In this document: piece by piece, positions 1,998-52,000 of the stretch
Layout of the letters: each line of letters starts with the position of its first letter
Position numbering within the stretch: the stretch's first letter is position 1
NCBI RefSeq assembly: GCF_964355755.1
Contig: NC_092673.1
Location: 35,969,648-36,033,647 of the forward strand
Direction of reading: 5' to 3'
DNA from: Antedon mediterranea
Taxonomy: Eukaryota; Echinodermata; Crinoidea; Comatulida; Antedonidae
Length of the DNA stretch: 64,000 bases
The notes under the pieces: model-generated
The model's input: only the letters and a program-made list of their open reading frames with translations
Database searches by the model: none
What the model was told of the DNA's origin: nothing
Position numbers and translations under genes: made by a program

Positions 1998-4098
1998 ATC
2001 CCACCATGATAAGACAATGTCTGATCCCACCATGATAAGACAATGTCTGATCCCACCATGATAAGACAATGTCTGATCCCACCATGATAAGACAATGTCT
2101 GATCCCACCATGATAAGACAATGTCTGATCCCACCATGATAAGACAATGTCTGATCCCACCATGATAAGACAATGTCTGATCCCACCATGATAAGACAAT
2201 GTCTGATCCCACCATGATAAGACAATGTCTGATCCCACCATGATAAGACAATGTCTGATCCCACCATGATAAGACAATGTCTAATCCCACCATGATAAGA
2301 AAATGTCTGATCCCACCATGATAAGACAATGTCTGATCCCACCATGATAAGACAATGTCTGATCCCACCATGATAAGACAATGTATGATCCCACCATGAT
2401 AAGACAATGTCTGATCCCACCATGATAAGACAATGTCTGATCCCACCATGATAAGACAATGTCTGATCCCACCATGATAAGACAATGTCTGATCCCACCA
2501 TAAGACAATGTCTGATCCCACCATGATAAGACAATGTCTGATCCCACCATGATAAGACAATGTCTGATCCCACCATGATAAGACAATGTCTGATCCCACC
2601 ATGATAAGACAATGTCTAATCCCACCATGATAAGAAAATGTCTGATCCCACCATGATAAGACAATGTCTGATCCCACCATGATAAGACAATGTCTGATCC
2701 CACCATGATAAGACAATGTATGATCCCACCATGATAAGACAATGTCTAATCCCACCATGATAAGACAATGTCTGATACCATGATAAGACAATGTCTGATC
2801 CCACCATGATAAGACAATGTCTGATCCCACCATGATAAGACAATGTCTGATCCCACCATGATAAGACAATGTCTGATCCCACCATGATAAGACAATGTAT
2901 GATCCCACCATGATAAGACAATGTCTAATCCCACCATGATAAGACAATGTCTGATACCATGATAAGACAATGTCTGATCCCACCATGATAAGACAATGTC
3001 TGATCCCACCATGATAAGACAATGTCTGATCCCACCATGATAAGACAATGTCTGATCCCACCATGATAAGACAATGTCTGATCCCACCATGATAAGACAA
3101 TGTCTGATCCCACCATGATAAGACAATGTCTGATCCCACCATGATAAGACAATGTCTGATCCCACCATGATAAGACAATGTCTGATCCCACCATGATAAG
3201 ACAATGTCTGATCCCACCATGATAAGACAATGTCTGATCCCACCATGATAAGACAATGTCTGATCCCACCATGATAAGACAATGTCTGATCCCACCATGA
3301 TAAGACAATGTCTGATCCCACCATGATAAGACAATGTCTGATCCCACCATGATAAGACAATGTCTGATCCCACCATGATAAGACAATGTCTGATCCCACC
3401 ATGATAAGACAATGTCTGATCCCACCATGATAAGACAATGTCTGATCCCACCATGATAAGACAATGTCTGATCCCACCATGATAAGACAATGTCTGATCC
3501 CACCATGATAAGACAATGTCTGATCCCACCATGATAAGACAATGTCTGATCCCACCATGATAAGACAATGTCTGATCCCACCATGATAAGACAATGTCTG
3601 ATCCCACCATGATAAGAAAATGTCTGATCCCACCATGATAAGACAATGTCTGATCCCACCATGATAAGACAATGTATGATCCCACCATGATAAGACAATG
3701 TCTGATCCCACCATGATAAGACAATGTCTGATCCCACCATGATAAGACAATGTCTGATCCCACCATGATAAGACAATGTCTGATCCCACCATGATAAGAC
3801 AATGTCTGATCCCACCATGATAAGACAATGTCTGATCCCACCATGATAAGACAATGTCTGATCCCACCATGATAAGACAATGTCTAATCCCACCATGATA
3901 AGAAAATGTCTGATCCCACCATGATAAGACAATGTCTGATCCCACCATGATAAGACAATGTCTGATCCCACCATGATAAGACAATGTCTGATCCCACCAT
4001 GATAAGACAATGTCTGATCCCACCATGATAAGACAATGTCTGATCCCACCATGATAAGACAATGTCTGATCCCACCATGATAAGACAATGTCTGATCT
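1998..4098. repeat. 26-bp minisatellite, about 80 copies
   Basis: The unit is TGATCCCACCATGATAAGAC plus AATGTC, repeated for 2.1 kb with few variants (CTAATCCC, AAAATG, GTATGATC, and a 3-base deletion giving GATACC). Because 26 is not a multiple of 3 and the unit lacks minus-strand stops, long minus-strand frames (up to 641 codons, 26-residue period) are open. These are a by-product of the repeat, not genes. It lies between exon 540-930 and the CREBRF exon at 4573. Confidence 0.97.
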
Positions 4099-4572: not shown

Positions 4573-7500
4573 CCGGTAATGGATTTGTACTCATATAGTG
4601 ATCTGGTGTCTGGGGTGTCGTGTGTACCAAACCAAGAACAATCTCTTCAGTCTTCAAACTGTATATATTTGCCTGCTAGTCCGCCTTCTATGTTCCCTTG
4701 TGACCTAGAGGAGCCTCACAGCGTATCGTTTGGTAAACCCATCCCTTCAGGAAGTAAACAAGCAAATAAAACCCGTCACAGGCCACCCAGCATTATGGCT
4801 ACCAGTCCAAGTGGAGAGGGTCTCAATGATAGATTCTTTAATGATTTGTCCATCTGCAGCGGGTCGTTGGATGAGAGTGTTTGCGGCAGTTTCACCGACA
4901 GTTTGTGCGGAAGTTTTAACGAAAGTTTATGCAGTTTTAAAGATGGAAGAGAATCTCCTTGGGGTTCTTACGAAAGTGATTTTTACGGTCTTGATGACAT
5001 GAGCAGTCCTCTGCAACATCAGGTGGATGATTTTGCACACGACCCGACCCTCGCAGAATTAAACATGGAGGATTCACAAGGGTTTGATTTATCGCATCAA
5101 TCATCATTTTCACAAGCTAATAAGCAAAGTTCTGTTAGTATCCCAGTATTGTCCAAAGTCCTATCTCAACAAACCCTCCAATCAAACATGCAATCTTACT
5201 CTTGGCCTCAGGGACCCTCTAGGCATGTCTTCAATACAACATTTACAAACACTGCAATAGATGATGACCTCAAAAGTCATGACACATCTTCTACAAGTCT
5301 CCCTTCTGTAAGAAGCAAATCAGAGAAAAAAGACAGTTCTTTAGTTCTTGCAAAAAACAGCCTGCCAGTAAAATATCCCAATGACGTACATTCTGTAAGA
5401 GCAAAAAGCCCAATTGAGTATACCAATTTATTTATGATACGTTCTTCAAAAAATCATAGCAATTTTGGAAAGACAATAAAAGGAGAAAAAAGGAAAATAA
5501 GTGAAGTGACTGGAAGGAAAGATGAACCAAGGAAGTCAAAAGAAAGAATGTCACCTAGTCTACGGAAAGCAGCGTCTAGTCAAATGCAACTCATTGAGGT
5601 TAGTTTGGTATGACATTGTTAATGTTATAATAGTATTATAGTATCTACACTACCAAACTTTATGTGACAACAAATGTGATGTGCCCATATATGGACATGA
5701 TAATGTCATACTGTATCACTACCATATTTAAGCATATCACTACCATATTTGGTTAGTTAATTAGGGACTACTTTTTTTTATACCTTTGTATACATGCACG
5801 ATTCCTTTACAGTATCTTGATATTAATAACTGCTCTTCTCTATATAAAATTGGCATTTTGTAAATGTGATACTTAATATTTTAAGTTCAAATGCAGTATA
5901 AAAATGACAATAACAAATTATTGATCTGCCAAAAATCCCAGAAGACTCTGTTCGGAATGTGGTATTGATGTTGATATACCACATTTAAAAATACAAGTCA
6001 AAAGATCAGCTTCAGCAAATAATAAATCCATCTATAATTCAATCAATCATTGAAATGTCAAAGTGGTTAAGAACAAAATATTAATTATCTTGAATGATCA
6101 ATTTCCTGTAACTAGATTAAATTTCTGCTGAATATTGCAGGTGACGTTGGCACCTGGATGGTAGTTGCTGAAATGGCATATAATGATAAATTTTATGATT
6201 TATATAGTTAGTTTAATCTCTTTTCAAGTTAATTTAATCATTTTCATTTTATTTCAAAACCCAAACCAACAGCAAAAAAGAATTCGCCAATAACAGGCGG
6301 GTTAACACATAAATTGATTTCAATATCAATTAATTATTTAATTTTTTTTTTTAAACCTACTAAATGTTTACAGGAGGAGGAAGAAGAAGATGATGAAGAT
6401 GATCTTGATTCTCACGATGAGGGATTAGGGAGCGAGAGAGAAGATCATGATGTAAGTGATGATGAGATGGCAGATGATGCAAGCGATATATCTGATCTAG
6501 GTGAGTTTTATTGTAAACACACATGTACTGTCCAAACCATGTCAGCAAATTGGTGTGGACAAGTGGGTAGTTAGAGGTCTTGATTCTATAGTATATCTGA
6601 TCTAGGTGAGTTTTATTGTAAACACACATGTACTGTCCAAACCATGTCAGCAAATTGGTGTGGACAAGTGGGTAGTTAGAGGTCTTGATTCTATAGTATA
6701 TCTGATCTAGGTGAGTTTTATTGTATACACACATGTACTGTCCAAACCATGTCATAGCAAATTGGTGCATGATATGGACAAGTAGAAAGTAGGAAACTTG
6801 ATTCTATCAGTTGTTGTTGAATTTCTTTGTCCAAACCTTGCAAAGTAGATGTATGTATAGGGTAGCTGGTCTTAATTCTATAATTTTAATGAGAAGAGGT
6901 TTTAAAAAAATGGACTTTATTATCTTTTGGGATTAAAGCTATTCAATTTTGACAGTTTAACAAGGTTCAATTGCATTCTATAGTTTTGTTGTTAGATTGT
7001 ATTGACTAGTGACTTTGTGAAGTTACAAAGTCACATGGTGCTGTGCAGACTCACAACAGCTGTGCTGTGCCTTTGTATTTAAAATATATATATTTTTTTT
7101 AAATTCAGGAATTTCCAGTATCATTGGCCCAACTCCAAAAGCTCTTCGATCACGCCGAGGTGACTATGATGATTGGACGCCAAACCCAAAGCGTTTACTA
7201 CAGATTGGTAAAGAACTTTGCAAACTGAATAAAGTGATAGCTGATATGTTGCCACTGCACAGACTACCACCAAATTCACGAACAAAATCAAGAAAAGAAA
7301 AGAACAAGCTTGCTTCAAGGTAGGAAATTGTTGATATTCATAATCACTAAGGCCTTGTCTACACTATCAAACTTTATGTGACAAAGAATATGATGTGCCT
7401 GTATATGGACATGATGATGTCATATCACTACCATATTTGGGCATATCACTACCATATTTGGGCACATCACACTTTTTTTGTCAAACTAGTTTGATAGTGT

Positions 7501-10500
7501 AGACAGAGCTTAAGTATAGTCATTATAATTTAACAAAAGTTTCTATTGTATACAGTTAAGCAAAGTAAGCCAAATAAGAATACTTTAAAGACCCCTTCCC
7601 TACGTTTATTAGATCTAATTTAAGATCACAAACTATATTTAATGTAAAAATAATACTATATGGTCCTATTGCGATAACTTTTTTCGTCTTTAAACGGTTA
7701 AAAATGTGAAAAATAAGTCGATTCTAATAATTATAGCGGCCCGCTATAAATCCCAAATGCATTGCGCGCGGATTGATATTTTTGTTTTTCACCTGTAATT
7801 CGCCCACTTTTCGATCGATCGCGTGAGGCCAAAACAAATGGAAGACTCCTAACTTTTCAGCGAAAATACCGGGTTTTTCCCAATTTGTATCAACGGAGTC
7901 TGGCAAAAATAGAAAGACAATTAATGCAGCAACTATACAACGTCAGGCTAGGTATATAGCTAGCGTACGATGTTTGTACGTTACCGATGTTTACCAGCTA
8001 GGCCTACAAAACTAAGCCTAGCTAGGCTAGGCCTAAGACCTCGCGAGAGGTCGATCGCCGCGAGCTACTTAGGTAGTGCATTGTTTCTCACTTTTTATCA
8101 TAATTTACCATAAAACGTACTTTAAGACAAGGAATGACATGGTTTAATGTTTTTAAAGTGATATAATGTATTATTTTCCAAAAAACGTCCAAATTTGCAG
8201 GGAAGGGGTCTTTAATATTATTGTAAATTATTGTTGTTTTTGTTGAGATGTTTTTATGTAATAAGAATATGATAGAAATAAAACTTGTACCGAATATATG
8301 CTGTATAATTAAAGACTTAAATTCAACCAAAATTGAAATTCACTAAAGCGCTTCATATTACCACAGAGAAATAAGTTTTCTCTATAAGTATTGTATACAA
8401 TGTATGTACGTATATCAAATATAATTAAACATTAATAATAATTAATATTTTTATATTCATGTTGTTTTGTGCGAGTAATGAATTTGTGAAATATAAGACA
8501 ATTTGTAGGAGAAATTCAATTTATGTTGATTGATTTGGTTAATAATGCATAGAGTACTCGCTTACAATTCCAAGAATTAGTTGAGTGTCTTTCTCTTGGG
8601 TTTTATTACTTACCTGTCAATCATTCTACCTCATTAATATTCATAATTTCAATCAATCCTCCTTTTCTGCATAATTTCTAATATGATCAACTCAAGGATA
8701 AGCATTTGATGTATCATACACTCTCTACATGATGGCCATTGCTTCTGTGTTATTGAAATAGAAATATTCTATTATCCTATATCTTAGTATTATCCTATCA
8801 TCCTATATCTTAGTATTATCCTATATCTTAGTATTATCCTATTATTATGTAAATAAGTTTGCATGCATGTAAATGTACCTGGAAATTAATCAATGCCACA
8901 CCAACACAAATTAATCAATGCCTGCCACACCAACACAAATTTGAATCCAGAATCCTACCATTAGACAACTGGGTCTTGCATGGTATGGTTCAACTGGGTC
9001 TTGCATGGTATGGTTCAACTGGGTCTTGCATGGTATGGTTCAACTGGGTCTTGCATGGTATGGTTCAACTGGGTCTTGCATGGTATGGTTCAACTGGGTC
9101 TTGCATGGTATGGTTCAACTGGGTCTTGCATGGTATGGTTCAACTGGGTCTTGCATGGTATGGTTCAACTGGGTCTTGCATGGTATGGTTCAACTGGGTC
9201 TTGCATGGTTCAAGTCCATATTGGATAGCGACTCTTTATTTCAAATTTGTTTATTTATGTGCAATTGTTTAGACTCTACATGGTTAGAGTTGCATCTTAT
9301 CTTATCTTGTTTTATTTTAACTTTAATGCACGCAATACTGGTTATATATTTCAAAGCAGTGTCGTAACGCAGGGGGAAAGGCCCCTCCTGGTTTAGAAAA
9401 CTCTAAAAGGCCCTTCAATGCTGGGAGTTGCATTGGGGCTCCTCATGCTACTGGGGCCCTTTGTTTACCATGCAGTGAACGGTAATAGCCAATACGCCAC
9501 TGATTCAAAGGGAATAAGCTAATAATAGGCTCATGTTATGTATATTTATAGATTAATTGATTACAAAATAATCTACCATTATAGTCAACTGTTTCCCAAT
9601 ACCGAACAGCTGTGGCTGGCCAAACATGTCTAATTTTCCGGAAAGTAGTACTAGTAGTTGTAGTAAAAATAGTATACTGCTTTTGAAATCAACTACACTA
9701 TTGTATGAAGGCATTTATTAATTATTTTCATTAATATTTTACAACTGAAACATGAATAGGAACAAAAGAAACGTAGAATTTTAAATTAGCAGATGCTATG
9801 TCTGATGAACTAATTAAGTGTTATACAATATTTCATTGTCTTCTCATTTTCCAGAGCATGCCGACTAAAGAAGAAAGCACAGCATGAAGCAAATAAGGTC
9901 AAGCTACATGGCCTAGAAAAGGAACATGGTAAGTAACACTGCATTGTGGGATACATCCACTTTAATAAGGTCAAGCTACATGGCCTAGAAAAGGAACATG
10001 GTAAGTAACACTGCATTGTGGGATACATCCACTTTAATAAGGTCAAGCTACATGGCCTAGAAAAGGAACATGGTAAGTAACACTACATTGTGGGATACAT
10101 CCACTTTAATAAGGTCAAGCTACTAGAAAAGGAACATGGTAAGTAACACTACATTGTGGGATACATCCACTTTAATAAGGTCAAGCTACATGGCCTAGAA
10201 AAGGAACATGGTAAGTAACACTACATTGTGGGATACATCCACTTTAATAAGGTCAAGCATGGCCTAGAAAAGGAACATGGTAAGTAACACTACATTGTGG
10301 GATACATCCACTTTAATAAGGTCAAGCTACATGGCCTAGAAAAGGAACATAGTAAGTAACACTACATTGTGGGATACATCCACTTTAATAAGGTCAAGCT
10401 ACTAGAAAAGGAACATGGTAAGTAACACTACATTGTGGGATACATCCACTTTAATAAGGTCAAGCTACATGGCCTAGAAAAGGAACATGGTAAGTAACAC

Positions 10501-11978
10501 TACATTGTGGGATACATCCACTTTAATAAGGTCAAGCTACATGGCCTAGAAAAGGAACATGGTAAGTAACACTACATTGTGGGATACATCCACTTTAATA
10601 AGGTCAAGCTACATGGCCTAGAAAAGGAACATGGTAAGTAACACTACATTGTGGGATGCATCCACTTTTAACTAACTTTAACCATGTGGTATAACAATGA
10701 CAGCATACCATTGGCATTAACAACCTGTCTAAGTCACTTGCTCAAATCAGGTTGTTCAGGTGCTTGCATATTGTCTTCAAAGTTCTTCCTTAACATGTAT
10801 AGTATTCATATTAGTCTGGTTGTAGTCACTGTGGATGAAAGTAAGATTTTGATATATTTAAGCTCTGTCTACACTATCAAACTCGTTTTGACAAAAAAGT
10901 GTGATGTGGTCAAAAATGGTAGTGAAATCCCCAAATATGGTAGGTAGTGATGTGACATCGTCATGTCCATTTATGGCCACATTACATTTTTTTGTAGACA
11001 GAACTTTAGTTATATTGTTGTTTTTTTATTAGTGTTGTTTGCAGCTTATCTTCAAAGCCAATCAGTATAACATGTTTGTTACACCTCTACTGATATCTAT
11101 TCTGAGAATGTTCTTACTAACAAGTATTAGTACATTTATCTTTTACTTCATAGAAAGCTTGTCATATGTGTTATCACAAATCAAGAAAGAAGTGGCATTG
11201 AGGACTAAACAGCAAGGATCTCATTATCCATTCTCTTTGTCTAAAATGTTGGAACAACTCACAAATGAAAACTTAGGTATGATTCATTATTATCTTTTGC
11301 TTGTTGTTTTTTAAAGATCTCATGAAATATTCCAACCATAATTAAATTTAAATGAGTAAACAAACTCTTTGTCATAGCTTTGATAAATAGACAATGCTTG
11401 AGCCCAAGAAGGCGATATATTGCTATGATGTGGTTTAAAGATGTATTGTCCCCCAAAAGCATGAAAGATGAAGATTAATAAAATCAGACTTTGATTAGGC
11501 CATTATGTAGTTTCAACAAACTTAATCACTTCCGTAGAAAAAAAAACCTGAAAAAATCATATTTTCACTAATAACATGACAAAAATAAACTGTTAAATTC
11601 AACCAGAATCCCATTTGCTGCCAGCCAATTTGACCATATTTTGTAAATTACAGTTTTTTCCAGGTAAAATATTTGTTTTTTTTTTATTCAATTTTTGGTA
11701 AAAGTAAATAACTATTATGTGACATTAAAATTGAAATTATTTTTTCAGGGGGAACAATTCACCTTTAAGTAATGCACGACTGTATACACTAAACAAGTAT
11801 CATACTGGCTTATAAATATTAATGAGTACAGTTTATTTGTATACTATTTAATAATAATATCTTTTAATTTGCAGCCACAAACATTGCCGGACACACAACA
11901 GAATTTGTTAACACTGTCCTTGACAAAACGGCCAATGGACATCCAACCGGTGGATTGGATGTGGAACTACCTGAATAA
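4573..11978 (+). CDS. CREBRF: CREB3 regulatory factor (CREBRF / Luman recruitment factor) orthologue
   Basis: Coding exons: 4573-5598, 6374-6500, 7109-7319, 9855-9928, 11154-11276 and 11875-11978 (TAA 11976-11978). All junctions are GT-AG and phases match (0,1,2,1,1). The first in-frame ATG of these exons, 4579, gives 552 aa (human about 639). Landmarks: YGLDDMSSP and [12 protein letters not shown] in exon 1, an acidic stretch with SHDEGLGSE in exon 2, [16 protein letters not shown] and [11 protein letters not shown] in exon 3, then [17 protein letters not shown] in exon 4. The last two make the basic region of its atypical bZIP, with the zipper continuing in exon 5. The C-terminus has [15 protein letters not shown] and [14 protein letters not shown] is a nuclear protein that antagonises CREB3/Luman in the unfolded-protein response (family knowledge). 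If exon 540-930 belongs here the protein is longer. Two junctions, after 6500 and 9928, are overrun by tandem repeats. Confidence 0.93.
5640..5752. mobile_element. Truncated MITE, AGCTCTGTCTACAC family
   Basis: It begins at GTATCTACACTACCAAACTT and includes the GTGATGTGCCCATATATGGA core and two TATCACTACCATATTT units. The right terminus is missing. It is intronic in CREBRF. Confidence 0.7.
6489..6765. repeat. 105-bp tandem repeat spanning a CREBRF splice donor, about 2.6 copies
   Basis: The exon end TATATCTGATCTAG plus donor GTGAGTTTTA occurs at 6500/6501 and again at 6605/6606 and 6710/6711, with the intervening intron sequence copied. Only the first copy is attached to the acidic coding exon; the others are intronic decoys. 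Confidence 0.93.
7349..7513. mobile_element. MITE, AGCTCTGTCTACAC family, near-complete
   Basis: Inverted ends CTTGTCTACACTATCAAACT and AGTTTGATAGTGTAGACAGA enclose the standard core. TAA flanks both sides. It is intronic in CREBRF. Confidence 0.85.
7589..8211. mobile_element. Complete TTAA-target MITE (piggyBac-like), 623 bp
   Basis: It is flanked by TTAA at 7585-7588 and 8212-8215. The termini are AGACCCCTTCCCTACG and GCAGGGAAGGGGTCT, a short inverted repeat. The interior is non-coding with a CpG-rich stretch (GCGCGCGGATTG, TCGATCGATCGCGTG). It is highly similar to the copies at 1-239 and 55861-56486. The TTAA duplication is what piggyBac transposases leave; no transposase is seen here. 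Confidence 0.88.
8968..9212. repeat. 25-bp minisatellite, about 10 copies
   Basis: The unit is CTGGGTCTTGCATGGTATGG plus TTCAA, almost perfect. Plus-strand frames are open across it only because the unit lacks stops. It is intronic in CREBRF. Nearby, 8768-8840 has three short copies of TATCCTATATCTTAGTAT. Confidence 0.95.
9892..10668. repeat. 72-bp minisatellite copying a CREBRF exon end and splice donor, about 11 copies
   Basis: Each unit holds the last ~37 bases of the bZIP exon (AATAAGGTCAAGCTACATGG and on to GGAACATG), the donor GTAAGT and ~30 bases of intron. Several units have a 6-10 base deletion around CTACATGG; one has AACATAGTAAGT. In the exon frame the donor reads GGT AAG TAA, so retaining any unit ends translation. 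Only splicing from the first donor (9929) keeps the zipper frame. Confidence 0.96.
10858..11008. mobile_element. MITE, AGCTCTGTCTACAC family, inverted core
   Basis: Starts AGCTCTGTCTACACTATCAA, ends GTAGACAGAACT, with TTA on both sides. The core is in the opposite orientation to most copies. It is intronic in CREBRF. Confidence 0.8.
11439..11764. mobile_element. Second TTAA-target MITE family, 326 bp
   Basis: TTAA at 11435-11438 and 11765-11768 flanks the inverted termini AGATGTATTGTCCCCC and GGGGGAACAATTCACCT. It is non-coding and intronic in CREBRF. A diverged relative lies at 4183-4480. Confidence 0.75.
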
Positions 11979-14880
11979 ATAGAACATATTTCTCTGTGTA
12001 AAAAAGCCGATTTACGCACATTACATAATGGAACTATTTATTTTCTATTTAATAATAAAAAAATAGAAATGGATTAGTGAAAGAGTTTCAACCACAACCT
12101 ATAGCATGGTCTCCATATTATATAAAGACTTTATTTGGAGGAAATTATAAAAATTTAAAAACAGAAAAATCAAATTTCACTAAATTGTTTTTGTCGAAAC
12201 TGACGAGATTAGTTCAATAGAGCTTGCATATTTGAACAACATCGAGTATTTATTATACATTGTTCTCATTGTATATAATGCTGTACATTATCAATTATTA
12301 AGTCTCCATGGCTGTACTGGTATAACATCTGAAAATCATAATCTAACTACTGTATATCTGGCATACTGTACTTTTAATGCGTTGTGTTGCAATAATTGTG
12401 TGGATAAATAATGAACTATCTTTTAGTACATGTTACTGTATGTTCAGTTTAAAGGTATTACTTGGATATATCACTATGTGACCAAGCTTTAAGCTTGGTT
12501 CCCTCTAGGATGCAACGCAAAGATGTAAAGCAACATAAATGATTTGACCAATCACAAGCAATGGATTATTCAAACAGTGGCTCATTGGTCAACTCACTTG
12601 CGTTGCATGTATGTCCTTGTATAACGTCTCTAGTGGGAACCATGCTTTATTATTAGCCTATTCATTTAATCATTCTAAGTAAAGTTAGCTTTACCGCAAA
12701 CTTATAGTGTTTATTAACAATTCTGCGTGAAAGCCAGTGTAATTATCATCAATAAATGTTTGCTCTGTAGGAAGTGTGCTGGAAATGATAAACACACATG
12801 CCAACACCTTGGTTTTATTATTATGTTGTATCAACAACAGTAGATTTAGTAATTGCTTATTAATATCAAACTATGTTTATAGTGTTGAGGAAGCAAATGG
12901 GATTGAATTAAAATAGTGGTAGTATTTATATTCTCATGATTTCCTGCATATAAATGCAATATGATAAATATTTAACTCATTATTTACTGTGAATTTAAAG
13001 GGAATGTTTGGAGTTGCTGACAATGTTAATGGGATAGTTAATGCATATTACACATATACACATTTCCATTACTTACATTGAACAAAATAAATGAACCATC
13101 ACAATTACTATATTCATTGCTATAATTTATTATCATCATTTAATCACTGTGTAAATTAAATGGTGCAATCATAAATTGTACCTTGTACACTAGCAGCAAC
13201 TCAACTTAATTTAAAAACTTAAACCATTATTAATGTGGGTCCTATTTAATCTACCATGTTATTTCACTTCAATAATTTGTCATGTTCTTTACTTTAATTA
13301 TTTATTTTATTTATTAAAGATTAGTAAAGCTCTGTCTACACCATCAAACTTTATGTGACAAAAAAATGTGATGTGCCCAAATCATGGACATGATGATGTC
13401 ATATTATTACCATATGGGCACATCATACTTTTTTGTAATACTGTACTAGCTTGATAGTGTAGACAGAGCTTAAGAATCTTTTTACTCAGGATTTTTATTG
13501 TAAAAGGTGGTAACATTCTTAAACATTTGTATTACCTATTATTTATTTTTATTATCTATTCAGTAATCGTAATCTTACGAGTTGTTATAGAAATTGAAAA
13601 ATTAATTTTCTTTGCGATATTGATGAGATAGGTATAATGTGTGTGTTCACCAAAAGTAAAAATAAACTTTAAAATATGTAAATAAGATTAATATTATTGA
13701 AGGTAATTGGTCATTGGCAAGCGTGTTGCCATGGCAATAAATCATACACTGTATATACTTAGTAAAAATATAGATAATATAGTAAATGAAGATCCGTGGT
13801 TTATTTTTCTGTATTTATCTGTAAAATTTATGAATGCATTTTTAAAAGGTTTGAGCATTTGTTTTAGTAGGTGTTGTGCAACCTATCCCTGGCATAGGTC
13901 ATAGTTCAGATTAAAGAAAGGTGGTGTAAATAATATTTTTATACACTGGTTGCAGTGTATTTGAGATAATGAAGAAGAAAGGCTTTTAATTTGAAATGTG
14001 CTATTTTCTTGAATAAATATATTTGAAAAGCTTCTCTTTGTATTTTTTGATGTTTTTTTCACATTGTAAAGCAGTAAACATTGTACTAAAAACAGAGCTC
14101 AAGTTCTTTGGACCAAACAGGTACTACAATTTAAAGATTTAAATTCATAAATGAAGTTAAATGTTTACTTTTACAATTAGCCCTTGTTTACTTTATTTAT
14201 TTTATACAGTTTCTTTCTTGAATTATTGTTGTTAGATCAAAATTTATGCATTTTTTGTGAAAGCTGTGAATAAAGTTGAAAGTTAGTTATGAAAATATAG
14301 AAGATTATTTAACTTGACTCACATTAAAAATCAATACACTTAGTAGATGCTTTGAACTTGAGACTATGCTATCTAGATAACTGACAAAGAATATAATTAT
14401 CCAAGCTGACGTACATTTGCTTGCATCATGAGGGAGATAAAACCCTGATGTTGTTCATTTTATCATATTTGACACTTGAGCTCAAATAGAATAAACCAGC
14501 AAGATAGTGTTGCCATGGTAGTTATATAAAAGTAATTGTAGTGATCATATTATTTAACAATCTTTAGTATCCAGGTTTTTATCTTTTGACATTGTCCCTA
14601 TTGGACATACAGTAAATGATTTACCCATACTAACTACTTCCCACAACGCGATTAAAAAATACCTCACTTTTGATTTTGAAACAGCCACGTCAGCACGTAA
14701 CACAAAAGCTCTGCAATACCAGATTTATAAAGGTACATTTTAACACTAATTTTTGTACAATAGGAATTAATGAACACAATATTATAACAATTACTGATAA
14801 TCACAATCCAGTAGAAAAGATTAGTATCAGCATTAAAAATATAATCACCAAATAAAAAAAAAAATTATATTTTACTAATT
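11979..14880. other. CREBRF 3' flank / 3' UTR and spacer
   Basis: No supported gene. AATAAA-like signals occur soon after the stop and again near 12750 and 13087, so the 3' UTR may be long, but the poly(A) site cannot be chosen by eye. A MITE lies at 13328-13473. Short open frames here have no recognisable domain. Confidence 0.6.
13328..13473. mobile_element. MITE, AGCTCTGTCTACAC family, with TAA duplication
   Basis: AGCTCTGTCTACACCATCAA on the left and TTGATAGTGTAGACAGAGCT on the right are each flanked by TAA. The core is shortened relative to other copies. Confidence 0.85.
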
Positions 14881-20036: not shown

Positions 20037-23000
20037 ATGAATGTCGTGCCTAAAACAATTGGAGGTATACTTCATAATTTGAACAAAAATGCATCCGATT
20101 GGTAAGTTATAACATCTGAATTCTAGGCTCATCCAACCAGCAAATTGAACATGCAAGAAGAAAGGAGGGAGAGTGGGAGAGTGATCCCTGTGAGTGACGT
20201 GGAGAAGTCATAATGATTAGGTAGGGCCTAGCTAGTAGGCCTACAGTAGTAGAAACTGATGTTTGCAAGAGGCTTGCAACAGCGACTGGTCTAAATTTAC
20301 TCTCTACTGTCTACACTGTCAAATTTTATGTCACAAAAAAAGTGTATGGACATAATGATGTCATATTACTACTATATTTGGGCATATCACTACCATATTT
20401 GGGCACATCACACTTTTTTGTCAAACTAGTTTGATAGTGTAGACATAGCTTAAATTAAAACTCTGTCTACACTATCAAATTGTATGTGTTTAATATATTT
20501 TAACACCGTCAAACCGTAAATTATTAAACGTAGATTGTTTTTCTTTTATAGGGGATGGCCATCATTGCTTGCATATGGCTGCCAGACGTCTGTTGTAGTT
20601 GTTGACACAAAGACTGTTCAGGTAGTGTGCCTGTATTCATTTGATATACCAAATTGTTGGTAATATACATTAATTCATTCATTGTAATGTAATGTTGTTT
20701 GATTTATATATAGCGCTTATGCACTTGTCAATTGTATGACCCACTATACGACCCCCGGGAGAGGTGCGTCATTTGTCCGATGTGCGTCATACTTTTGAAT
20801 ACCATGACGCACCCATGCGTCAAAAAGGTGACTTACCTTTAGGTGACCATGACGCACCCATTTTGACGCACTGTGACCATGTTGTTTATGATATGGTGGG
20901 TGGTAAAGTGACGGACATTGACACACCTTGTTCATTGATGTGACGTACCATCTAGGTTTTTTGACGCACCCCTGCGTCAGTAATTATTTGTAAATGACGC
21001 ACCTCTCCCGGGGGTCGTATAGTGAGTCATACAATTGACAAGTGCATTATACAATCAAAAGATTGTCCCAAAGCGCTGAGAGAAAAAAAAAAAAGAAATT
21101 ACAAAGAAAAAAGATGCGTTTGTTTAATTATTTTTTATTTTATTTGTTTGAATTAATTATTATTCGTCCGTAAATGAACCAAACAAGACTATCTAACCAA
21201 AACCTTAGAAATAAATAAAGAAAATTGATTGTTATTTCTAGATAATTCAAACACTTGAAAAACACAAGAGTCATGTGACACGAGTGAAGTGGGCACGTGA
21301 AAACTATCATCACACAATTGAGGCGCCATACACCTTACGTCTTGCATCAGCAGATAACTCGGGTCACATCATTGTTTGGGATGTCAGTGAAGCTTGTGAA
21401 AGAAGTAGTTTTTCTGAAGGAAATAAACCAGTCTTAGGTAATAACAATCATGATATATTTTTTAATAATGTTTGTTCTATTTTGTTAGGGTTACATGTTA
21501 GGGTTACATGTTAGGGTTACATGTCTAAAGTACTTGTACTTATTTTGTATCCGATTCCATTATCATTTTATTGTATTTGTATATGTTTATATTTTGATCT
21601 TGGAATAAAAATGTCAATGATTGATTGATTAGATAGTAATATTATGAGTTATTTCTTTTTTCATATCATATCTCAATGATTTTGACATATTACAAAATGT
21701 GTCGAAAAGTCATTAAAATGTTTTTTTTTTCCACAGAGATGGAATGGCTTTCAACACAAGATGCGTCACATGATCTTCTGGTTGCCCTTCACCCACCATA
21801 CTCAATCATTTTATGGAATGTAGCAACTGGCACAAAACTTTGGAAGAAAACATTTACAGATAACATTCTATCTATGACCTTTGACCCATTTGAACCCACT
21901 AACCTTACTTGTAAGTTAACAAAATACTAACATAAGTACAGTACTGTTAACTTAAGTACAGTACTGTTAACTTAAGTACAGTACTGTTAACTTAAGTACA
22001 GTACTGTTAACTTAAGTACAGTACTGTTAACTTAAGTACAGTACTGTTAACTTAAGTACAGTACTGTTAACTTAAGTACAGTACTGTTAACTTAAGTACA
22101 GTACTGTTAACTTAAGTACAGTATTGTTAACTTAAGTACAGTACTGTTAACTTAAGTACAGTACTGTTAACTTAAGTACAGTACTGTTAACTTAAGTACA
22201 GTACTGTTAACTTAATTTGTTCACTAATAATTTTAGTTACTACTACTATTAAGCTTTGTCTACACTTCCAAACTTTATATGACAAAACAATGTGATGTGC
22301 CCATATATGAACATGACGATGTCATATCACTACCATATTTGGGTATATCACTACCATATTTGGGCACATCACATTTTTTTTTCGAAATATTTTTATAGTG
22401 TACCAACATAGAGCTTAAAATTTAATTGGTTGTTTCACTTCGGTTAAATTTTCAATTTTTATATTTAGTGCTGGGAAATGATTGCATTTTGTTTGTCAAC
22501 GATTTTTCCATCGCTAAAGCGCCCTCAAGTAATGGACGTAAATTTTACATTACATGTCCAAGTTCAATCCCATCGTCGTCGGGTAGCAACTCTGCCTCCA
22601 CAGGAGAGAAGAAAAATGGAGGCAAACCAAAAGGAGCATTAAGAAGAGTACGTCTACTTGTTGGTGATAGTAAACCAAAGTGAGGAGTATTACATACTGT
22701 TATGCTTAAATTTTGATTATGAAATTGAATTACAAAAAGAAACATGGCATGGGCATCTTGGAAATAAAAAAGGAATTCTAGTGCACACTTTTTATTGTTA
22801 AATTGTTTTTTTTTATTTGTAAATGTCTAATTTTTCTGCTGTATGTACTGCAATATGTTTTTTTTTATATTTCAATGAGATTTATATCGTATTATTATGT
22901 GTGTATATAATAATATAGTAATATTTTATATTGATTTTTTATATAATTGTAATCAACTCTCAATTCAATTTTTAGAGAGTATGAAATAAAAGCCATAATA

Positions 23001-47359: not shown

Positions 47360-47767
47360 TTGATGAGCTTGCAACAAAGTACAAAAATTCAATTGATTGT
47401 AATCAGAGAATAATGAAGTAGTCCAATGCAAACACATGGTGTCATTTGCATTGTTAACATGTGTTCACACTGGTGTTATTTGCAGTGTTAACACGCATTC
47501 CCACTGGTGTAATTTGCATTGTTATGCATTCACACATGTGTCATTTGGCAGTGTTAACATGTATTTAGGAGTAACTTTCCAACAAACGGTGCTATTTTTT
47601 ATGTTTGACAAATGAGGCTAAATTAATGTAATACTTTATATATATTATGTACAGTATCAAATAAAAACATATATCTTAAAACTGTAAATATAAAAATAAT
47701 TTTTTACCAGTTTTACCAATTTTAAAAGTTAAGGTAATTAAGGATAAAACACACCTTTTTCAGGTAA

Positions 47768-47917
47768 GTTTGATATAATTATGGCAGATAATCTATAATT
47801 TGATATAATTATGGCAGATAATCTATAATTTGATATAATTATGGCAGATAATCTATAATTTGATATAATTATGGCAGATAATCTATAATTTGATATAATT
47901 ATGGCAGATAATCTAAA
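47768..47917. repeat. 30-bp repeat, 5 copies
   Basis: The unit is TTTGATATAATTATGGCAGA plus TAATCTATAA, in the ZIP13 3' flank. A 76-codon minus frame here is an artefact of the repeat. Confidence 0.94.
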
Positions 47918-48149
47918 TTCAAGGTGACTATGTCGATGAGAAAGATTTTTATGTGCCATCAGTTGCATTATACAACTATTTTATAATAACTACGACTTGA
48001 AGACTTCACCAAACCATTGGTTGCAAAAAGGCAACTTATCATCGTCCAAGTTTGTACTTTTTCCACTGTTTTCTATATTTATATAATAATCCTAGTTAGG
48101 TGATAATTATGCACTTTTTGATTTGACAAAGACAGATATTAGATATACC

Positions 48150-49042: not shown

Positions 49043-52000
49043 TCATTGGCACATCCCTGCTTTGGCTGCCATTTTAGCAGCCTTCGTTTTCGCAGTATTC
49101 TTCATCTTTGACATCTCTGTCGGCAGAATGTCAACATTTGATTTTTCAGTGGTTGGATAAAGGCGATCAATCACATATTGTAATCCGCGGTTTGATTTTA
49201 AAATGTTTGTTTTATATCTTTCCAGACCAAAAGCCTGAAGTGGTCTAGAAAACCCATACATATTTGAATTGATCCATGCTTCCTTTTCAACAACAGTCCA
49301 GTCTTTGTTTTCTGAGGAAGCTTTGTAAACGCACTTTTCTTCCAAAACCTATAAATAATAATTTGGTTAATTACTTTCACTTGAAATAACCATGATTTTC
49401 TACTATATCTTAAGTTTAAGTAATCTACATTTAAATAAAGTCTAGATAGTCTAGATACCCTAGATAGTCCAGATACCCTAGATAGTCTAGATCCAACCAT
49501 GTAAACAAACCACCCTTTCTTTTTTTAATTAACATTCCATCATTTACTTGTTGTAGTAACTGGTACCCACCATAAATCTTGTATATCCAATATTCCTAGT
49601 ATACGATGTCATGACCTTCTTAATTGGATCTACAACAGTCTCCTCTACGATGTACACGTGCCGTGCATTGTTCCCAAACACAAAGTTTCCCCATCGAGGC
49701 ATGCGATTGGTCTTTGATAATATTCGAGTAGACACTAATTTGTTGTCCTCCACATTTCTTGATATTGTATCTTCAGATATGACATGTTTACTGAACAATA
49801 GAACAAATATTTCATATGATTAATTTAGTAAAAATTCAAAAAATTGTTTTGGAAAATTATTAGAATTTATTTAATATAATTGTGGGTATATTTTAGAACA
49901 TTGGTAAATCACAGACTAAGATTAGGAAGGGATCCAGTCAAGTCGCCCCATCGCAAAGTCGCCCCATACAAAGTCGCCCAATACAAAGTCGCCCCATCGC
50001 AAAGTCGCCCCAAAACAAAGTCGCCCCGGCACAGTCGCCCCATCTCAAAGTCGCCCCATTACAAAGTCGCCCCATCGCAAATTCGCCCCATCGCAAAGTC
50101 GCCCCAACGCAAAGTCGCCCAATCGCAAAGTCGCCCACGGTTTTAATCATATCGGTTGCGTTTGATATCGATTGCGTTGTTACTTTGGTCACGCTAAATG
50201 TCGTATACATTAATGTTTATCCTATTATATACATAATGTGTTTTAATTTGTATTTTACAGGTTTTACTGGAGTGATGTGCTTTTTAAAAATCATTAAAAA
50301 AATAGTCCCTTGTTTGAAAGTTTTAAAAAGATTATCCCTGATTTAGGCCTATAGTTTCGAAAATGTTAATTTAATATGATTTTAAAATTAGTTACCAGAG
50401 CCACAATTACAATTTCTTCAACCTACGCGATACCAGCTCATTTTTTAGGATAATAGCCTATAATAAATGTATAAATGTGTAGTAGGCCTTCGTATAGATT
50501 TACAGTAGTTAAAACAATAACAGTGTTGTAATAGGCTACTTATTGATCATTTTGCATTTATTGACAAGTTATGTGTCTTAATTTTATAATGACTTTTCAA
50601 AATGAAGAAAAAAAGGGGATTTCATCGCCGATATGATTGTTTTACATGCAGGTATTAGTAAAATTAAAACGCAACATTTTGACCATGGAAAAACCATCGT
50701 ACAGTATCGTGTGCGTGTTTTTTAAAAAGGGGAATCCCCGACGGTCAGCAGAAAGACGTAGCAGCTGTGAGGAAACAGATACCAGAAGGCGCAGCTCCGA
50801 TTGGATTCAGAGAATGTTTCAGATGGCGAGTCGCCTTTTATTCAACAGCACAATGATCATTTTACTGAAGAAATTTTTTTCAATCCTTTTGGTTATAGAA
50901 CATTCTAATTATAATGCCTAATAAATATCCTCATATCGGGTGTTTATTTAATTTTAAATTAAACAAGACAGTGAAGAGGCACGGAATAATACGTACACGG
51001 ACGTACGACAAATACACACACGCACGTTATCATTTACGACATATAGTGGTGATATGATGCAATTTTATAATGGGATATAATGATGGGATTGCCTTTCCAG
51101 GAGTCTTACAATCAATGTTCACTGTAATACTATGTATATAATAGTAAACTGAATGTTTATAAATAAATTGTTTTACGTAATTTGTTGCATATAAAATAAA
51201 AGACACAGACGTAGCCTACGTTTCCTATAAAATATTTCACATTTAAATAATTATGTAAATTGTACTGTTAAATGACATTATGCTGGATAATACTATATCT
51301 TAAACTATGTTTACAAATTGTCATTTTTTAAGCCACACATCTTTCTCATCATAGGCCTACTGACCTGTAAAATAAAAACAAAAATCAATTATTAATATAG
51401 GCCTAATAATAATAATAAATATTCATCGACCAAAGTAAAAATAATCTAGATCGTATAACATCATTTTATCGCGACCGATTTCGAACGCGACTGATGATAT
51501 CATCGTAAAACTCCGGCGGGGTTTCCCCATCTTCAGATGGTGCGTTGTAGAGTGCGACAACGGCAACGGCGGAGTAATTACGAGGGTTTCCCTCTGGTAA
51601 GCTAGCACGTTAGAGTGCGACCGCGGAGTGCGACCGAGTGATTAGTCGGGGGCTTCCTCTCTGATATGGGGGTGCGTGCCGATCGTGTGACCTGAGACTA
51701 CATGGCGGGGCTTCCCCTTTTATGCCTACACAATCTGTGTTATTTTGTGTATCATTGCAACATTTTACGCACTTGTAAACTGTTTTTTAACGTTTTGGGG
51801 CGACTTTGCGATAGGGCGACTTTGTGATGGGGCGACTTTGCGATGGAGCGACTTTGCGTTGGGGCGACTTTGCGATGGGGCGACTTTGCGATAGGGCGAC
51901 TGTGTCGGGGCGACTTTGCGATGGGGCGACTTTGCGATGGGGCGACTGTGTAAGGGGCGACTTTGTATGGGGCGACTTTGCGATGGGGCGACTTGACTAG

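Follow-up and report, generated by a model that had tools for sequence, protein, structure and literature searches.

A splice-donor-copying minisatellite in a CREBRF-like gene of the crinoid Antedon mediterranea: an echinoderm 'mirage' that is probably close to neutral

A tandem repeat that copies the end of an exon together with its splice donor raises the question of which donor is used, and whether the number of copies matters to the gene. Such an array lies in a stretch of 64,000 nucleotides of the A. mediterranea genome (contig NC_092673.1, positions 35,969,648 to 36,033,647), referred to here in its entirety as the window. The features discussed are collected in Table 1.

Table 1. Features of the CREBRF-like locus (window positions) and boundary arrays in sampled genes (positions within the named piece).
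Feature	Position	Strand	Basis or detail
Modelled CREBRF-like gene	4579-11990	+	AG/GT ends and open frame
Exons of the gene	4579-5598, 6374-6500, 7109-7319, 9855-9928, 11154-11276, 11875 to stop before 11990	+	Modelled
Fourth exon, 74 nt (putative basic region and zipper start)	9855-9928	+	AG acceptor, GT donor, joined open frame
Fifth exon (remaining zipper and residues after)	11154-11276	+	Gene model
Second donor-copying array, same gene, end of exon 2	6487-6767	+	105-bp unit x 2.7 (TRF)
Minisatellite at exon 4/intron 4	9892-10668	+	TRF period 72, 11.0 copies, 95% matches, score 1421
Authentic 5' splice donor GTAAGT, copy 1	9929-9934	+	Frame fits exon 11154-11276
Ten extra GTAAGT donors	10001-10639	+	Starts 10001, 10073, 10139, 10211, 10280, 10352, 10418, 10490, 10562, 10634
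In-frame TAA read when donor 1 is skipped	9934-9936	+	Translated products of donors 2-4
Donor-straddling array, chaperonin (CCT-family) gene	L014 903-1094		
Donor-straddling array, chaperonin (CCT-family) gene	L014 2069-2250		
Donor-copying array	L014 2916-3253		Exon absent from family-search listing; one copy TT for GT
Acceptor-straddling array, myosin gene	L035 2065-2192		Decayed copies upstream

Exon ends of the gene were picked by AG/GT dinucleotides and an open frame, and exon numbers count modelled exons only. The six modelled exons joined to give 552 residues without a stop. Residues 442-496 matched Pfam bZIP_1 (E 7.7e-5) with 23.2 bits against a curated cut-off of 27.6, and bZIP_2 was matched with 18.8 bits against a cut-off of 22.3. 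An earlier note on this DNA had described a CREBRF bZIP gene; the intact frame with a probable bZIP is present, and the name CREBRF is putative, being based on similarity of the bZIP and C-terminal sequence and not on a matched CREBRF record. When the 113 C-terminal residues were searched against the genome, this one locus accounted for all five matches; three are the last three exons, and two weak ones (E 0.10 and 0.49) lie within the array in intron 4 or immediately past it. No paper naming CREBRF was among the best matches listed in a search for literature on CREBRF splicing.

The units of the exon 4 array were delimited by splitting it at the recurring AATAAGGTCAAGC; they start at 9892, 9964, 10036, 10108, 10174, 10246, 10315, 10387, 10453, 10525 and 10597. 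Each of the 11 consists of an exon tail (37 bp, or 31 bp in units 4 and 8 and 34 bp in unit 6) followed by 35 bp of intron; the unit straddles the modelled exon-intron junction, as had been claimed. Eight have a length of 72 bp, and the exceptions are units 4 and 8, with 66 bp each, and unit 6, with 69 bp. The array spans 777 bp and begins 37 bp into the modelled exon, so the interval of 9855-10668 given in the earlier note does contain it, but opens with 37 bp of unrepeated exon. Distinct variants distinguish the units and occur in irregular order along the array, and an identical 6-bp deletion is found in units 4 and 8, which suggests block exchange between units. TRF also reported periods of 138, 279 and 351 bp for the same interval, of which 279 bp corresponds to four units. 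A DNA search of the genome (354 Mb, 18 contigs), in which very common words were skipped, found no second locus of the array, its one match being the array itself.

These features point to an origin by one tandem duplication, the breakpoints of which would have been 37 bp inside the exon and 35 bp inside the next intron. Judging from the variant pattern, unequal exchange probably then amplified the duplication into an 11-unit minisatellite, and a later block exchange would account for the deletion shared by units 4 and 8 and for the four-unit period.

GTAAGT was found in all 11 units, whereas 500 rounds of dinucleotide-preserving shuffling of the array stretch gave 0.33 occurrences on average and never more than 3. 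The 'about 11' copies of the earlier note are therefore exactly 11 if the authentic one is counted, leaving ten extra donors, and these do form the proposed ladder of near-identical sites; nine of the ten have the same score as donor 1 (5.65, using a donor scoring matrix). The exception is the donor of unit 7, which scores 1.59 because its position -1 is A and not G. The remaining donors of the gene score between 1.91 and 6.47. The retention of GTAAGT in every unit says little on selection, because the units are highly identical. RNA folding of 9855-10107 (253 nt) gave z = 0.11, so no unusual structure that would hide the extra donors was detected in this segment. Where equal donors compete, the upstream one is not always chosen, and the competing load of nine equal-scoring donors on donor 1 is unusual; it counts against a reading in which donor 1 alone is used.

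The coding consequence of skipping donor 1 is the same throughout the ladder, as CAT GGT AAG TAA is then retained in the mRNA. Donor 1 gives a product of 552 residues and donors 2, 3 and 4 each give 479 residues with the C-terminus LEKEHGK, so that among these four translated forms only donor 1 provides the full frame; donors 5-11 retain the same upstream stop. The truncation by GGT AAG TAA that the earlier note had read from the sequence was thus confirmed by translation for donors 2-4 and follows from this stop for the others. The distance from the stop to the junction ranges from 64 to 697 nt across donors 2-11. Nonsense-mediated decay is generally expected when a stop lies more than 50-55 nt before a junction, and the mRNAs from all ten extra donors are therefore candidates for it. 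The predicted fate of these forms is loss by this route, and not production as truncated protein.

The gene has a second array of this type. Its unit joins 14 bp from the end of the second exon to 91 bp of intron, and GTGAGT is present at 6501 (authentic), 6606 and 6711. Among the 48 merged arrays in the window, only these two contain a donor scoring at least 4.5 inside the unit. Two of the five modelled donors of the gene are consequently in arrays and the other three are outside the listed arrays; this share is higher than in the sampled genes described below, for a gene that was chosen for its array.

Other arrays in the window have features of their own. The one at 21911-22215 (20-bp units) begins 17 bp, and the one at 47764-47919 (30-bp units) 5 bp, downstream of the G of a candidate donor GTAAGT, which is not repeated in either. 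At 49940-50136 and 51796-51994, two minisatellites whose 16-bp units are reverse complements lie opposite one another with approximately 1.7 kb between them, an arrangement that recalls a fold-back element whose ends consist of repeats, and L007 4743-6480 resembles this facing pair.

The frequency of arrays at exon boundaries was determined in 25 pieces of the genome (160,922 bases) holding 21 genes, some of them partial (nine chaperonin, four tektin and eight myosin). The genes were picked by family and not by repeats, with the myosin piece L033 taken partly for two close matches to one model segment, and 101 of the 102 listed family matches lie wholly inside the pieces. Tandem arrays cover 6.3% of these pieces (69 arrays), 9.1% of eleven 9-kb pieces taken one from each of contigs C1-C11 (37 arrays) and 22% of the window. 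In an automatic pass, one of 74 donors fell within an array, as did none of 85 acceptors; the pass misses arrays into which a family match runs. Arrays near matches were therefore considered (eight at 60 bp or less from a match, plus one in L038 with an exon crossing the piece edge), and the sequence was inspected for eight of the nine, leaving out L019 1944-1995, 46 bp before a match. This added two donors and one acceptor, and the five other inspected arrays are intronic.

In total, boundary arrays were found in two of the 21 genes, at three donors and one acceptor, among the 69 arrays. Chance placement at 6.3% coverage would be expected to catch approximately 4.6 of the 74 donors and 5.3 of the 85 acceptors; the observed counts are not above this expectation, so there is no enrichment at splice sites and nothing suggests that these attract arrays. 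Boundary arrays do cluster within single genes, with two in the CREBRF-like gene and three donor-copying arrays in a 3.5-kb span inside one chaperonin gene (L014). In the myosin array of L035, the upstream copies read AAAG or GAAG compared with GTAG at the real acceptor, as if decoy acceptors had been weakened. Across 12,198 unit positions there are 9 donor motifs and 5 reversed ones, and the density of donor motifs is 0.74 per kb in arrays versus 0.43 outside (reversed motif 0.53 outside); no enrichment in units is claimed, because four of the nine come from one 279-bp unit of the exon 4 array.

The sampled families also gave observations unrelated to the arrays. On contig C3, at about 19.6-25.1 Mb, a myosin-head segment (model about 342-408) is present at no fewer than 19 places and a second (model about 564-640) at 12 or more, both among the 65 of 335 candidates that were scored; this is a local expansion. 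In L033, the same myosin segment (model 107-152) occurs twice, at 3017-3148 and 3188-3322, 39 bp apart, and the two copies are possibly mutually exclusive exons. Two tektin exons scored much higher against sea urchin chains of 8SNB, a doublet structure (PMC10973386), than against the next-best chains, which are mammalian: 182 bits versus 139 (7UNG, human) and 295 versus 157 (7RRO, bovine). Among the tektins available for comparison, which included none from amphioxus or hemichordates, this favours an echinoderm over an amphioxus host. A COX1 search of the genome gave no match, and a GFP family search, which might have pointed to amphioxus, was negative here and equally in all 14 controls, so that it carries no weight.

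We are fairly confident that the exon 4 array is a young minisatellite that straddles a splice donor by chance, that donor 1 is the one used, and that the array is close to neutral. Through exon definition of the 74-nt exon, the spliceosome would pair the upstream acceptor, which is fixed at 9853-9854, with whichever donor is closest, so that donor 1 would give the full protein. Slips to donors 2-11 would yield degraded mRNA, which would keep the array close to neutral, and most likely it does little harm to splicing.

A regulatory role, in which copy number tunes output as the earlier note had suggested, is unlikely. In its specific form the ladder would be a rheostat, in which use of donors 2-11 exposes to nonsense-mediated decay a fraction of transcripts that depends on copy number, and thereby sets the amount of CREBRF. 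The equal score of nine of the ten extra donors, their common stop 64-697 nt before the junction and the second ladder at the end of exon 2 are all in keeping with this. We nevertheless regard it as very improbable, as the amphioxus precedents suggest regular splicing (PMC3087553, PMC3902484), boundary arrays occur no more often than expected from array coverage, and the near-identity of the units suits a recent array better than a maintained device. Were the choice of donor to vary with copy number, the array would act as a heritable, perhaps somatic, tuner of a stress regulator.

We give the same low standing to the array being an assembly artefact, for example an over-expanded short repeat. 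A single assembly was examined, the copy numbers of the amphioxus PGBD5 repeats differ between two sequence versions (PMC3902484), and one amphioxus globin array was judged by its authors to be aberrantly assembled in the draft (PMC3087553). Set against this are the distinct variants of the units and their irregular order, the length of the array, which at 777 bp is short relative to long reads, if long reads were used, and the commonness of tandem arrays in both the gene pieces and the scattered pieces.

A broader proposal, that unstable minisatellites at donors form a lineage-wide, copy-number-tuned splicing rheostat, with the two CREBRF ladders jointly setting the share lost to nonsense-mediated decay and an energy and stress regulator thus varying by array length between individuals or even somatic cells, we consider a shade more doubtful still. 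Least probable of all is that the ladder serves as a source for a new intron or pseudo-exon, the role put forward for the amphioxus globin repeats. The unit does hold AAG|GTC plus a donor, and a model exists (PMC3087553), but the opening AG of every unit (TCCACTTTAATAAG) follows an A and no more than a short run of pyrimidines, and inclusion of the 31 nt so defined would disrupt the reading frame.

The reading of a near-neutral array with donor 1 in use agrees with the amphioxus precedent. Tandem repeats spanning exon-intron boundaries were named 'mirages' in amphioxus, where they occur in Adh3 (units of 10-72 bp) and in the globins BflGb6 and BflGb9 (150-160 bp), with splice signals in many but not all of the globin copies (PMC3087553). 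RT-PCR suggested that splicing of these genes is undisturbed, although the copies could be cryptic sites; the same report discusses length instability, a role in making new introns, and the possibility that mirages are general in cephalochordates (PMC3087553). Troponin C was added subsequently, together with similar repeats adjoining 5' splice sites in PGBD5, which have units of 60 and 108 bp and copy numbers that vary between two sequence versions; undisturbed PGBD5 splicing is an inference of those authors (PMC3902484).

In both animals a minisatellite-like repeat crosses an exon-intron boundary (modelled here), which in mirages may be on the donor or the acceptor side; the units of 66-72 bp and 105 bp are near the reported range, and the copies carry splice signals. 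The differences are the echinoderm host, the exon, which encodes a putative bZIP, and the copy number, which is 11 here compared with 3 and 6 in two BflGb6 haplotypes and 2-7 in PGBD5. In human segmental-duplication genes, variable internal tandem repeats, some of them at the exon-intron boundary, change gene structure (PMC2812944). These are also boundary minisatellite expansions, but their effect is to lengthen exons or create new introns in recently formed paralogs, whereas the crinoid array was found at one gene locus and has a stop in each unit.

No report of boundary minisatellites in echinoderms or sea urchins was found among the titles and opening lines of abstracts in the open-licence literature. 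The array is an echinoderm example of an amphioxus-type mirage; it extends these repeats from cephalochordates to an echinoderm, in keeping with the view that they emerge in any DNA rich in minisatellites. Its row of eleven donors, ten of which share one score, also provides a natural test of spliceosome choice.
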